NCBI RefSeq assembly: GCF_004027225.2
Contig: NC_044298.2
Coordinates: 558,001 to 622,000 of the forward strand
Length of the DNA: 64,000 nucleotides
Source: Strigops habroptila
Lineage: Eukaryota; Chordata; Aves; Psittaciformes; Psittacidae
Direction: 5' to 3'
Position numbers and translations under genes: made by a program. Each line of letters begins with the position of its first letter. Position 1 is the first letter of the stretch. The notes under the pieces were generated by a model that worked only from the letters and a program-made list of their open reading frames with translations, did no database searches and was not told the origin of the DNA. Below, in pieces: positions 11,629 through 64,000 of the stretch.

Positions 11629-14600
11629 TTAGTCTGAATCTGCTTCATCTTCAGATTCATCTGCTTCAAACTCTGTCTCATAGCACTGGGAGAGAGTTCT
11701 TAGCTTGTGTAAGGCCTCCTGGAAGTCATCCTGCTCTACTCCAGCAGAGAAGAAACTGGCCCAGCGCCGCGTGTTCACCTTCTGCAGGTCCTTGTACAAG
11801 CCGTAGAGGAGTGTGTGGAGAACTGGGGCAGCCTGGAGGGCTGCCAGCACAGGGATGCTTTCAACAGCTGCAGGGACAAACATCTTTGTGTCAGCAGAGC
11901 CATCAAACCCTGTTTCTCTGCCCTCTTCTACTTCACAAGCAGTTGCTTTGCTTGTCCTCAGCGCAGCAGAGCTGCCAAACACACAGTTTTGCCCTACAAA
12001 CACCCAAAAGGTGAGCTTTTAAAGTCATTTTCTTTTCCCCTCTGTCAGACCCACATCATCTTTTCCTGTTGCAAAGCAAGTTTAAGGGGTGCTTGTTACC
12101 TGCTGGGGAGTGAGTGGGAGGTTTGTCCAGGAGGAAGCCTTGTCTGCTCAGAAGAGGAGAAAAGAACTGGGGGTACGGAGGTAGGGTGTAGCACGGCTGC
12201 TCAAGCACATGGGATGTGCTGTAAGGAAGAAGGTGAATAAAGTTATCCCAAACTCACTCTCCCTTCAGCTGCCAGGCAGCGTTCCCTGGTCTGTACCCAA
12301 ACCTGAATCCAAGTTACCCACCTGAAAGCCCCAGGAAACACAGTGTGTAAGTAATGCTGCAGGATGTGCTCAGTGCTCTCACAGGCGTGGAGGGGAGAAG
12401 GGGGCTGCCTTCCTGGGGAGCTGCTGCAAAGAAAACCAGCTCAAAACCAAGTCATGGGACGTGACTGAACCTGGGGGTGACTGAGTTCAGGTTTGCTCTA
12501 CAGGGAGTAACATACAACTGCCTGGAGCACCAGACACTACTAGGGTTGTGAGCACCAGTGCTGCTGAGAGCACTGGAGCTCCGGAGGGAAGAGTGCAGCT
12601 CAAATGCTCCTCACCTGCTGTGTCTGTCTTTGCAAACCCCTCGGAGCACAACGGACTGAGCGAAGCAGGAGCTGCCCTTTTGCTCCCTGCATGAAGCCAG
12701 GAGCTTCCAGGGCACATCCTGCTGGTGGGTGCAGAAAGCATCAGGGAGGGAGGAGCCGTGGAGGGCAGGAAAGGGAACAGAAGCCCACGCAGCCACAACC
12801 TACAGGAGAGGGGGTGACAAGTGATGATGCCCTAGAACCTTCTCTGTGTGTGGGGATGGATGTGGAGCAGAACAGCTCCTGTCCAGGCAGAGCCAACGGG
12901 CTCAGAGGGAGGTCGCTGCTCTTCAACCCTCACCTTTCTCCCTGAGAAGTTGAGTGTTTCAGCAAGGTGCAGCATCGAGCCCTGGGAGGAGCTGAGCCGG
13001 TAGGGAACAGTGAGGGTATCGAGTGCTGCTGCCAGGATGGCGCTGCTGTGGTAGTTCAGCGAGGCCTGTGGAGGGACACAAAGGGAAACGTGACAGGACA
13101 GGTCCCACTGAGCTGTTTCTTCGCTGGTTTTTGTGTATTTTAACTGCAGCAGATTGTGCTCTTGTAGAGGTTGTGGTTAACAGTTCAGGCTCTTCGCTAA
13201 CGTCATCTGCTTGGTGCCAGTCTTCTTGTCTCAGCAGCTTCTTGCTGAGCTGCAGTGACAAACTCCACAGAGGAGGAACACCACAGACAAGCACTTTGTC
13301 ACTGCTGCCACTGAAGCAGTGCAAAGGAGAGCAAAGGGAACGGGGTCCTGTTTGCTGCAGTATGAAAATGAGACGTTGGGGGTGAAGTCTCAGGGCCAAA
13401 GCAGGGAACAACCACACGTACATCATAGTTGATATATGGGAATGTGACAGGAGGTTGTGGCTTGAGTCCCAGGCTCCCGCTGAGGGACAGGGGGCAGAAG
13501 AGGGAGCTGTGGGTGGAGAGATGGACAATGCCCAGCGCTGTGTTCATCAGTCTGTAAACGTTCTTCTGGGAATCCTGGAGGGGGAAAATCCAACCATTAC
13601 AATCTTAAAAGCTGCCACCAAGGAACAGCCTGATCCGCAGCGGGCCCGAAAGCAGCGCCTGTTCTTGGCCTTTTCGCATTGTCTACTTACTCCCACGTTA
13701 CTCATGGCTGGAGTCAAGCCCCAGCTCAGGATTCCTTTTCCTGAATACTCATCACAGAGCAGTTCTGTCACCTTGGCACCGACTCCCGAGAAGCCGTTGT
13801 GTAGGTCACAGAGAACCTGAAAGCCCTGTGCAAAACAAGGGCAGCACCTGAGAGCCTTCAGAACCTTAACGGGAAGGTTCTTGAAAGCAAAGGGCAGCTG
13901 GGGCCGAGCTGTCAAACCTGAAGGTAATCACACTCCTCAACAAAGTAGTGCAACCGATCTTCCAGCTCCTCCATGCAGGCAGGATCCTGCAGGAGCCTTT
14001 CACCTTGGGCAAAGGCTTCCAGACACCCACAGTCCCTATGGAAAAAAGGAAGAATAAGAATAAAGCTTACTCTATTCCCCTCTAAATTATTCCTCGAAGG
14101 CAAAACGAAGCCCCTGTTCTGGACAAGCGATTCCAGCCCAGTCCTTCAGGCCATACCCATCGTGCATGTACTGCCGGGTGACATAGAGGCTCTTGGGATG
14201 CAACTGAACATTGAGGTGATCGGACCAGAGCTGCACGTTGCTGCCGGAGGGAACTTCCTGGGCAGCAGCGAGTGGGGAAGGGGCAGGAGCTGGACCTGGA
14301 ATGAGAGATGGGAAGAGGGAAGCTCCTGTCAGCTCTGAACAGCCGCTTGGATAAGAAAAAGCCAGTTTTGTTTTCATCTCATTCAGTTTCTTAACCTATT
14401 TACTGCTCTTTGACCCATCTTTCCACAAGCAGGAAATCTTATCCATAGTTTTCCTTCTCCCCTCACACTCGTTCACTGACACATTGGCCAGCATCAGTCC
14501 TAAGCAAGTAACCCAAACCCCTCAGGACAGCACCAGTGCCCCATCCCTGGCAGTGTTCAAGGGATGGGGGGCTTGGAGCAACCTGCTCTAGTGGAAGGTG

Positions 14601-15597: not shown

Positions 15598-18500
15598 TTA
15601 GAGCGGCCCCGCCAGGCGGTCGAGCTGCCGCGGGTTGGAGCCGCTCAGGAACCGCAGCTCCTCCTTCCCGTCCTCCGTGCGCGCTGCAAGACACAAGGTG
15701 CGTTGTGAGCGCGGCTCCAGCGGGGCTCCCCCCCCCGCAGCCGGTCCCGGTGTGCGGAGCCCCCCGGTGCGGCGCTCACCGTTCTCATGCTGCAGCCACT
15801 TGCGGTCCAGGTAGTACCGGTAGCAGCTCTCGAACTCCCTCGGGCTGTAGTTTGGGACAGGGATGGGGACGAAGGGGTCCAGAGCGTCAAAGCCCTCCTG
15901 GGAAGCAAAGCTCGGGATTGGAGCAGGACCCTCGGAGGGGGGGACCCGGCCCCACTCCAGCAGAGTCAGTTCGAGGGATAAGGAAGAGGTTGGGAGTGAG
16001 GAAGGTTGAGGCTGCAGCACAGGCAGCGCTCCCCGAGCCGAGCACGCTTCCCCAGCCCGGGTTTGTGTTTGCTTCCCCATGGGAAGGGGGGAAAAAATAA
16101 CCAAGAGAGGCCGGGACTCACCTTCCCCAGCAGCTCCTGGGGCAAATAGGCTGAGCTGGGTTTGAAGAGAGAGCCAGTCTGGCTGAGGGTTGTCACTATG
16201 GCACCTCCGGTCTAAAAGGCAGATTAGAAACCCTTTGAGCTGCAAGCGTAGTAGCTGTGAAACAGTTGTGGGGCTTCCAAACTTAAAGGGGCTACAGGAA
16301 ACCCGGAGAGGGGCTTTAGACGAGGGATGTAGGGACAGGATAAGGGGAATGGCTTTAACCTGCCAGAGGGGAGACTGAGATGAGCTCTGAGGCAGAAGCT
16401 CTTCCCTGTGAGGGTGCTGAGGCGCTGGCACAGGGAGCCCAGAGAAGCTGTGGCTGCCCCATCCCTGGCAGTGTTCAAGGCCAGGTTGGACACAGGGGCT
16501 TGGAGCAACCTGCTCTAGTGGAAGGTGTCCCTGCCCGTGGCTGGGGTTGGAGCTGGAGGAGCTTTAAGGTCCCTTCAACCCAACCCACTCTGGGATTAGC
16601 ACAGGCTGATGTTACTGGCATGTACCTTTAATTGCTGAGGAGAACACCCACAAAAGGTAGAGACTGGAACTCACCCAGTCATTCATCATCATCTTCCTCA
16701 GGTTGTACACAAGCGTCAGCTCCTCTGGAGAGACCTGGTGAGGAGTGTCTGGGTCACTTGTTTTTGCCAGAAGTTTGAGACATAAATTCCCCTCCCCTGC
16801 TTCAAATCACACGGGAAGGATCATTTGCAGCCTTTAGGAGCACTTTCTGACTTGCTTTTACTTAGCACTCAGCCTTAGTGATGTTACCCAGGGAAATGCC
16901 CAACCCTCCCCTGCTCTAACAAGATGTTTCTGCGCTTTCCTCTTACTGAACTTCCTGCAGTAAGAACTGTCTAAGGCACCACATTGTGCGGGTCCCTCCA
17001 CGCCAGCAAAGCCAAACGTACATCTCCCAGGGAATACCATAGAACTGCCCTGCAGTGGGAATGCAGAAACAGCACCAGAGCAGATCGCTTCTTACAGGGC
17101 TTTTGTCTTCCTTCTTCAACGTCGTCCGTCCCCAGAGCGCGTTGACGCCGTCCACTGCCACGAGCAGCCTGAAGGAGCCGAGGTGACATTGCTGCTTCAG
17201 CTCCTTCAGCACAACCCCTACGGCATCGCTGGCGATTCTCACACGGGCTAAACCCTGCCAGTAAGAGAAAGCACAAAACTCAGGTTGGCTTTCGTGTTAA
17301 CACAGAACGCTGGTGGCTTTGAGCACTCTCTGCCCTTTTTAAGGGGGAAGGAAGATGAAACAGAAGCCAGGCTGCTCATTCCTTTCAAAGGAGCAATCTG
17401 ATCTAAGGGACTGAGCATCAAAGAAGTGGTGAATGCTCCATCCCTGGCAGTGCTCAAGGCCAGGTTGGACAGAGCCTTGGGTGACATGGCCTAGTGTGAG
17501 GTGTCCCTGCCCGTGGCAGGGGGTTGGAACTAACGAGTTTAAGGTCCTTTCCAAGCCAGTCTGTGCTTCTGTGATCAAAGACATCGGAACTTCCAAGTTC
17601 CACTTTTTGCTTCTATCCAAGTTCTCTGTACAAATTCCATCACATCTTCCACAACGTTTTCTGTAGCCACCCTGTTGACAGGGAAATGCCATTTCCTGGG
17701 GCTCATATTAGCAAGATCTTTAGAAGCAATTTGTTCTACATACACAATGATGGGATCTTCCAAAGCAGTGAGACAAAGGCAGAAGCAGTTGTTACCAGCT
17801 GTGACTCCTTACCTGCTCCACCACTTCACCCAGTGGTCTGCCCTCCTCTGTGATTTCTCGTTTGCCCCACACATATTTTCTCTGTGTTTTTATCTGCAGC
17901 AAAAGAACTACAATTAGATTGGGAACTCCATAGTGCAAAGGCAGCTTCGGCAAGACTGGGTGGCAAGAGACAAGCCAGGGGGTAGTTCTTAGCTACCAAC
18001 CAAGACAACTTGACAGGCTCTACAAACCTCTTTTAGGAAGCGCTCATTGGAGGTTTTGAAGTTCTTGAGCCAGGAGGATGCTTGCAGAGGCTGATCAAGA
18101 CGTTCTTTCTTGTAGGAAGACTGCAGCAGCTCCCTGCAGTTTTTCACCCAGAGATGAGCTGAAAGCAAAATAAACCAGTTGCTTTTCTTTTTCATCAAAA
18201 GAATGGTATGAGTTGGGGGGGGGGGTGTGTTTGTAGCTCTTATACTGCTACCCTGGGAAGAAAATCCCACCATCCTTAACAGAGAAGACTCCCCCTTGAG
18301 AGCAGAAGAGGTTACACAGACCCACACACAGTATGTCATCTTGTCATACTCACCACCAGTGCACAAAGACTGATGATAAGCATGTGAGAGCACGTGAAAG
18401 TAACTGTCATTCTGTTCTCCTTTATTTGGAGAGGTTTGTGCTTTAGAAGCCTTCTCCACTACAGAAAAACAACCACTTGCTGTGGCCAAGCCTGCACCTT

Positions 18501-21500
18501 TCTCTTGCAGCAGCATCTCCCCCATCCCATGTGTGTTTGATGTCGTAACACAACAGCATTGGTGTTCTTACCGTCCGGGATGTGCAGCACCAGCCAGCCT
18601 TGCCTTGTGCAGTAGTGAATCACGTGGCACAGGGTCATGGTTTTCCCTGTTCCCTTCTCACCATCTCCAACATGGACTGTCAAGGAAAGGCTCTGACAAA
18701 CCACTTCAGTGTATTCCTGACTCGATAAGGTATAAGGAAGCTCAAGGGTCATCAAAGCAAGGGTGGCATTCCATCCTGCTTTTGTTGGGCAGGACAACTA
18801 GCCTCAGGAGTTCCTTCTTTCTATACATCCCCACCCCAGTACATCAGAGCTGATGATCCCCATGCCCTTAGTTGTGCTGATAGCCTGTTTGTACATCTGT
18901 GCCATAAGCCAAATCAGAACCACCTCTGAAGACTAACCTGCAGTGGTCAGCATAGGATCAAACATCACCCTCATGTGGATAAATTCACCTGCTCGTATTT
19001 AACTTGCATTCTACTCTCAAGTAAGTGGTAAAAGATACAGATCACATATCTGACAGCTGGGTGTGCAAAGTTGGAGCTCTTCAGGTAGGTGAAGAGTTCC
19101 AGAGCTGGTTTTCGCACCATCAGGAAGGCTTCGTTGAAGGTCTTAATCTGAGAAAAGGAAGAGACTGTGAACAAGAAGCCAAGTGCTGGCACACGACAGC
19201 TCTTCCTGCATGACCCCATCTCTGGGACTGTGCAGGGTCTGAATGTCCGCTGCTGTCCCCTCGTTACCAGACCAGTCACCACAGAAGTGGATCAGGTTGG
19301 TCAAGCATGACTTGCCCTTGGTGAAGCCACGCTGACAACCCCGATGACTTCATTGTCTTTGTGTGCCTGGAAGTGATTTCCAGGCTTAGCTGTTCCATCA
19401 CGTTTCCAGAGATGGAGGTGAGGCCAAGTGACCATTCTATGATTCTAAGGTGGAATCGTCCAACCCTTCTGCCACTATTCTGGTTAGGCTGACTCCTATC
19501 TTAGATGTAGAAAAGGAGAGTAAGGACCAGGAATAATTGCGTTCTTGCAGCACATCACTCTCTCTTATTCCAACAGGAAAGCATCCCAACTACCCGATGG
19601 ATCTGGTTCTTCCCACCTCCCAGTCCACTCCCCACAAACCTGCTCTAAGACACGTACCTGCTGCTGGAACCGATAGGGCAGCCCGTGTGGGAACACAGCT
19701 CTGACCTCCTCCAGTGGAATGCTGTAGTGGCGCCCCTCGTGCTGCTCTCCGTGGTTGGCCTGGGAAGGTAAAATGCAAACTGTGACACTTGGCAGAGTCT
19801 GAGGTCTCTTTTCTGGATCCAGGAGGCCTGTGAGAACCAAACAGGGAGGGAACACTCAAAGCAAGTATCTACTTAGAGGCAGAACTACTACTGTATTAAA
19901 GTACACAGGAATTGCAGTACCAGGACACTAATGGCAGATGCTTAGGAAGAGTCTACAGAAAGGACCCTACCTGGCAAGAAACAATAATGGGCTTCCTTGA
20001 GCTTAGATATGAATCGTTGTGTTTCAGGCACCAGGGCCTTAAGCTTCATGAATTTCTCTCATCTTTTATTAGTCCACTTGTACTTCTGCTCACCACAACA
20101 CCTTACCAGCACCAGGGTTCCCTTTGGAGTTATCTGCTGGATTCAGATTGACTTTCCTTAAGCCTCTGACAGAACTGCTGTCTGTTTTGTTCTTTGCCAT
20201 CTCTCAGGAGCAATTCCTAACACACCATTTGCCTTGGTAACTGGCACTGTTGTTTAAGAACTCACAATCTGTTTTCCAGGGCAATCATTTCAAGTCTCTT
20301 GCTGGGACACATGTGGTCAGGATTACTGCTCCAGCAGACCAGCATCATTCTATGTTTATTTACAGTGATTACTTTCAGATCTCTGACTATGCACACAAAG
20401 AAACAGTACCTGAGAGTTTAATACCCATCTCATGCCTTGTTACACAGCGATGGTTTCATTATTCTATTTACCTACCATATACAATACTTGCAAAAGCACT
20501 TATTTACTCTTGGTCTAGTCATCAGGTTTGAGTCTTGTGCAATAAAGGCAGTATTTAGAGACACTATTCTGCAGCACTACCTGTGTGACTTGCAGCAACT
20601 TCTGTGCCAAGCTGGGCCTGCCTTTTCTAGCAGCTTTGTGCCAAGCTCTGGAGCTTATGTCATGTCCATGGATTGAAAGTTAAAAGCTCCTCCTCTTTAT
20701 TCTTGTGCATGCCAATCTCTTGCTTCCATTTTGGTTGCGATGGAACCAGACTCTAACAACTTCCTTCTTTTCTCTATTTTGCATAATAATGATCCAGGAA
20801 TAGCTTTATTTCCTATTTAGAAAGGAAAAGCAGCAGTCATGATTTCTGCCAGCTTTACCAGATCTGGGAGTTGAGCCACACGCTTTCCTTGTGTTCCCTA
20901 TTAGCTTTGCTGTGGACCCAGGGCTTAATTTACTGAGGCCAGAACAGAGGAGACAGTTCTGCTCTGGGCTTGGTCGCTCACCTCTGCCTGCTGCTTTGAC
21001 CAGAATGAATGGGGAAAACCAAGTTGTGCTGAGTTCTGCTTCCTGCTGTGTTCCTCCCAGGGAACCATGTGAGCAGCTCTACCTGCAGGTCTGCCGACTG
21101 CCTGCCTTTGCCATGAGTATTTGGCTTTTCCCAGTTCCTTGAAGGACTCTTCACATCTGCAGCTCTGTTGCAGACCCCTGAATTCTCTAGCCGAGGCTTC
21201 TGGCTACATTCCTTTCTTCAGATGAGACTTTCAGCATGCAGCATGCCTGGGCTCTTATCTTCTGCCCCCTCCACTCTGAAAAGTCCATGCTAATGACACC
21301 TCCATTCCATGCCTTACTGAGGACAGGTACTCCTAGGCCAGGTCAGTGTGTCCTGGACTGTATGCTCACCTTGGTCCAGCTGCAGGAGTCGAGGTGCCCA
21401 CAGGTTCGCCAGACTATTTATAGTAAGAAACCATTTGGTAACTTCAGCAAACTGCTCTCTCCGGTGCTTAAGTGGCCAATGTGGTGTTTACTGGTCAGTA

Positions 21501-33641: not shown

Positions 33642-63428
<29,787 letters not shown>

Positions 63429-64000
63429 GTGAGGCCAACACAGGCTCCTCAGGTTGCTGCTTTGAGAACCTATATGAAGAGTTTAAGTAAGCTCTGTGTA
63501 TAAATGAAATGTGGAGTTACTACACTCTATATACCATATACCTTTTATAATACATATACCTTTTATAATGGATATAAAAGTTCTGTTCCATAAACTGTTC
63601 CATATAAACTGTTCTGTTCCATATAAACTGTTCCATATACCTTTTATAATACATACAGGGAATGCTATACAGAGAAAAATACCTACATACATGTTTGTGT
63701 GTGAATGCCCTTATCTTTACATAGCAGGGTAAGACAGAAGCTCTTTTGCTGTTTCAGTGGGGTTTTTGCATAATGGGATTCTGCACTTTCCTCTGAAACA
63801 CTTAATGCTATTTGCTGAAGGATGAGAATTTTGTACTCTCTAAACCACTGGTGTGGTTGCTGGATCTGTTTCTGTTCCCCCAGCAGCCCTGATGCCTCTC
63901 CTGTCCTGGTAGAAGTTGTCATGTCTCGTGTTGATCAAGAGTGGTTTATCAGAAGAGGAGGAAGATGATATTTAACATCTTCCATGATTGGACCCTCACA
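63429..64000 (+). other. ASH1L intron, cut by the window edge
   Basis: Begins GTGAGG after phase 1. The next expected exon (Asp-Val-Phe-Met-Thr-Gln) is not present before the edge. It contains the AT-rich repeat. Confidence 0.7.
63531..63660 (+). repeat. AT-rich interleaved minisatellite
   Basis: Repeats of ATACCTTTTATAATACAT and of CTGTTCCATATAAA, three to four copies each, alternating, in the ASH1L intron starting at 63429. Confidence 0.8.

Follow-up and report, generated by a model that had tools for sequence, protein, structure and literature searches.

Does the DAP3 gene carry a minor-spliceosome (U12-type) intron immediately before the codons of its Walker A motif, as a first-pass annotation of this locus had proposed, or is the intron an ordinary U2-type one in which U12-like motifs have arisen by chance? 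We addressed this question within the window, that is, the whole 64-kb stretch of DNA analysed, and concluded that the segment at 18665-19038 (-) is probably a genuine GT-AG U12-type intron of DAP3, a reading to which we assign, from the sequence, a probability of about 0.95.

DAP3 gene model and borders of the intron

The minus-strand coding region at 15598..19756 comprises 10 exons and 9 introns and encodes 341 amino acids with a stop codon at the end, the start of the protein being left out of the model. Judged by its translation, this gene is DAP3, encoding the mitoribosomal protein mS29. The joined 341-aa frame matched the best solved mS29 chain, 6gaw_Ag, over 338 residues gap-free (E 1.4e-181), and the five alignments shown of the 22 matched mS29 chains, all five of which we take to be mammalian, contained no gaps. 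Such a close match suggests a vertebrate source, and the short introns, the repeats and the neighbouring genes give an avian impression. The Pfam DAP3 profile matched the joined protein with E 1.5e-91, the Walker A sequence GEKGTGKT is present, and all nine introns of the model have GT-AG ends. A processed pseudogene was considered for this locus and is ruled out by the nine introns together with the intact 341-codon frame. Further downstream on the strand that carries DAP3, at 11632-14395 (-), we noticed peptides resembling by eye the exons of a gene that we take to be MSTO1 (misato); a Pfam match was found for none of the four open stretches tried there. On the other strand, an open frame of 1673 aa at 38816-43837 (+), very long for such DNA, gave a suprabasin repeat model as its sole Pfam match, below threshold, and could be a large single coding exon belonging to an adjacent gene.

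The intron at 18665..19038 (-) is 374 nt long, lies in phase 1 and has GT-AG ends. The upstream exon (19039..19147, -) ends in the codons for AVRYVI plus a single T, and the downstream exon (18572..18664, -) begins with AT followed by the codons for GEKGTGKT. The intron thus cuts a Tyr codon as T plus AT directly before the P-loop codons at 18639..18662 (-), and the earlier claim that it splits the exons at the P-loop agrees with this. Near the intron ends, 53 junctions with GT-AG, GC-AG or AT-AC pairs keep the frame without a stop; three of the 53 are length-neutral and, among the 25 nearest in length that were listed, the family sequence is restored only by 18665..19038, which bears out the coordinates first given, exact to the base, and the statement that the protein fixes them. 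When the exons were translated apart, the downstream exon matched Pfam DAP3 profile positions 29-61 from its very start (E 5.8e-11), and the upstream exon gave a weak, sub-threshold match stopping at position 28 (E 0.0056). The split of the profile between positions 28 and 29 lends independent support to the border.

Splicing signals of the intron

The 5' splice site GTATCTTTT (19030..19038, -) is preceded by exon bases TCT, with T at -1 and no AG at -2/-1. It departs from the U12 consensus RTATCCTTT by one mismatch, at +6, the same count that the first-pass annotation had given, and from the U2 consensus by four, while the eight other DAP3 introns show 5-7 mismatches to the U12 donor and 0-3 to the U2 donor. 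The lone deviation, U for C at +6, would still pair with U11 and U6atac as a G-U wobble. Matrix scoring of the donor also favoured U12 over U2: with matrices for donor, branch and acceptor that are approximations, it scored +9.0 bits as U12 and -4.4 bits as U2, a difference of +13.4. The eight control introns scored, on the same approximate matrices, -14.4 to -23.6 as U12 donors and +0.8 to +7.8 as U2 donors, with U12 minus U2 differences of -20.0 to -30.9 bits. Some of these eight are weak U2 donors and none is U12-like.

At the other end, the putative U12-type branch-point motif TTCCTTGAC (18679..18687, -), with the branch A at + 18680, is an exact match to TTCCTTRAC and scored 14.6 bits, as against 0.4 for the best of the eight control introns (approximate matrices). 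Fifteen bases lie between the branch A and the exon, so that the full match some 15 nt from the exon reported earlier was found again as described; the optimum for the distance from a U12 branch point to the 3' splice site is given as 11-13 nt (PMC3584512, in excerpt). The 3' splice site AG (18665..18666, -, GGAG before ATG) is the second AG past the branch point. It is a GAG acceptor with G at -3, followed by AT as the first exon bases, the U12 3' motif being CA plus G or C before AU (PMC10853781, in excerpt). As a U2 acceptor, GGAG followed by A scored -4.7, the lowest of the introns scored, with the controls at 0.2 to 7.9 (approximate matrices), and pyrimidines make up 59% of positions -20 to -4 versus 65-88% in the other eight introns, the end of intron 9 being set six bases off in this comparison. 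The lack of a polypyrimidine tract, another of the earlier claims, thus holds for the stretch between branch point and exon but not for the branch motif itself, which sits within a short pyrimidine run, CCTTTCCTT.

The same annotation had described a closer AG as skipped. An in-frame AG does exist, at 18677..18678 (-), 2 nt past the branch A; it is, however, the nearer one to the branch point and not to the exon. Its use would add four amino acids, replacing Y by FHVGD. In our view this AG is skipped because it lies too near the branch point. The CAG that it forms closes CCTTTCCTTGACAG, a modest U2 acceptor of +1.7 bits that falls inside the control range (approximate matrices), and an occasional isoform made from it may or may not exist. 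One could propose that this CAG is the main acceptor and is used by the U2 machinery, so that FHVGD would replace the Tyr that precedes the P-loop; the site is in frame without a stop and, on the approximate matrices, scores above the GAG site (+1.7 versus -4.7 bits). We hold this to be scarcely credible, as an insert of the FHVGD type was seen in none of the five mS29 alignments shown of 22 matched, the donor scores very poorly for U2, and the AG follows the presumed branch A by just 2 nt.

From these observed motifs, borders, frame and contrast with the other introns, we infer the spliceosome class and an order of recognition. U11 would recognise GUAUCUUUU at the donor, and U12 would pair with UUCCUUGAC, bulging the A at + 18680. 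The AG 2 nt past the branch A would lie too close to it to serve in the second step, leaving the next AG to be used, and the T joined to AT would then restore the Tyr codon directly before GEKGTGKT. We also considered a switch between two spliceosomes, by which the minor one would use the GAG and yield the normal P-loop, and the major one would occasionally use the CAG and yield an in-frame FHVGD form, the pyrimidine run and the CAG that overlap the branch motif letting the major spliceosome act. Such a switch is quite unlikely; if true, it would couple the nucleotide site of DAP3 to the level of the minor spliceosome.

Chance expectation of the U12 signals

A rival to the U12-type reading is that the borders are those of a U2-type intron whose splice sites are degenerate and whose U12-like motifs arose by chance. 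It has GT-AG ends, U12-like donors are found in some U2-type introns (PMC10853781, in excerpt), and each motif alone does arise by chance in a 64-kb window. Counted over both strands of the window, GTA-type donors within one mismatch numbered 3, where 30 shuffles gave 5.1 on average, and exact copies of the branch motif numbered 4, where the shuffles averaged 1.5. Either motif alone is thus unremarkable in 64 kb, but it is rare for the two to sit together at the ends that the protein sets for a single intron. When the intron itself was shuffled, such a donor appeared in 31 of 5000 shuffles and such a branch motif 8-20 nt from the end in 1 of 5000, giving a joint chance of about 1.2e-6 if the parts are taken as independent. 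An order-1 model of the other eight introns gave 1.2e-3 for the donor, 1.7e-4 for the branch motif and 2.1e-7 jointly. Against a U2-type intron stand this joint chance, of about 1e-6 to 2e-7, and the U2 scores of donor (-4.4 bits) and acceptor (-4.7 bits), both under those of all eight controls on the approximate matrices; the G at -3, the absence of a pyrimidine tract past the branch and the absence of AG before the donor point the same way. The prior for a U12-type intron is low, below 0.5% (PMC3584512, in excerpt), and even so we estimate the odds for the U12 reading at hundreds to one. We therefore regard a U2-type intron at these borders as highly improbable.

Two further pairs of motifs were seen in the window. 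At 37512 (+) there is GTATGCTTT, with one mismatch to the U12 donor, followed 1058 nt on, at 38570 (+), by an exact TTCCTTAAC; this pair has no protein-fixed borders and may be due to chance. On the minus strand, ATATCCATT at 63575 is followed 357 nt on, at 63218, by an exact TTCCTTAAC, with no protein-fixed borders. An Rfam scan of the 64-kb window returned nothing at gathering score.

Comparison with known U12-type introns

Biases of U12-type introns include T at -1 and a non-zero phase (PMC7367187; PMC10639083, both in excerpt), and the DAP3 intron, with phase 1 and T at -1, fits them. Validated human U12 GT-AG introns in one study have no AG before the donor and prefer A-T as the first exon bases (PMC10853781, in excerpt), and the exon bases CT at -2/-1 and AT after the acceptor fit this too. 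Vertebrate U12-type GT-AG introns share with the DAP3 intron the donor, the branch motif, the short spacing, most of the flanking bases and the non-zero phase. On the other hand, the GAG acceptor and the 15-nt spacing are off the values preferred in vertebrates, and the donor mismatch at +6 and an upstream CAG that makes the better U2 acceptor likewise count against the U12 reading.

Individual introns offer closer parallels. The U12-type intron of human UFD1 has, like that of DAP3, the donor GTATCTTTT, T at -1 and GT-AG ends, and it carries CCTTGACA at the branch; it belongs to another gene and differs in phase (2 versus 1) and in its acceptor (TGCAG versus GGAG) (PMC7367187 Table 1, in excerpt). 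The U12-type intron of SMYD2 has TTCCTTGAC in the branch region, followed in dog by A as in DAP3, and is also in phase 1, but it has AT-AC ends and lies in another gene (PMC7367187, in excerpt). Among the predicted U12 introns of Trichinella, two have GTATCTTTT donors (PMC2846911, in excerpt). Combined together, the donor, the exact branch motif, the poor U2 acceptor and the contrast with the eight other introns uphold the proposal of a U12-type intron before the DAP3 Walker A motif.

In the literature searched, outside which lay U12 databases and supplementary tables, we did not find DAP3 tied by name to a minor intron. DAP3 figures in PMC6201815 solely for its promoter region, and PMC6764500, which mentions both DAP3 and U12, is an expression study. 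Few human U12 introns are left to find according to one study (PMC10853781, in excerpt), and the DAP3 intron may already be present in U12 databases. Of 180 vertebrate intron clusters, 156 were U12-type across all eight lineages (PMC2831892, in excerpt); since vertebrate U12 introns rarely switch class, the DAP3 intron is probably shared with other vertebrates. We regard it as a convincing but unexceptional case of a class of introns that is already known.

Consequences for DAP3 and the mitoribosome

If the intron is retained, an in-frame stop at 18971..18973 (-) is reached after 22 codons, the frame ends ahead of the P-loop, and the P-loop and all later sequence are lost. Because retention stops the frame before the P-loop, functional mS29 would need minor-spliceosome activity, and it can soundly be inferred that the production of DAP3 would depend on this spliceosome. 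Since seven further introns lie downstream, we would expect the cell to degrade a message that retained this one.

The first-pass annotation had called the product a mitoribosomal GTPase. The gene does encode mitoribosomal DAP3/mS29, but the word GTPase is loose, since the nucleotide site of DAP3 is currently believed to bind ATP, according to a clinical paper (PMC11739875, in excerpt). The same excerpt relates that biallelic DAP3 variants in humans accompany a Perrault-spectrum disorder and that one of these variants, Thr132Ile, falls in the very Walker A motif that follows the intron. A role for DAP3 in regulating splicing in cancer is reported as well (PMC8980049, in excerpt). If the U12-type intron before the P-loop is real, the supply of a mitoribosomal protein in this lineage would hinge on the minor spliceosome, and defects of that spliceosome would be linked to mitochondrial translation.
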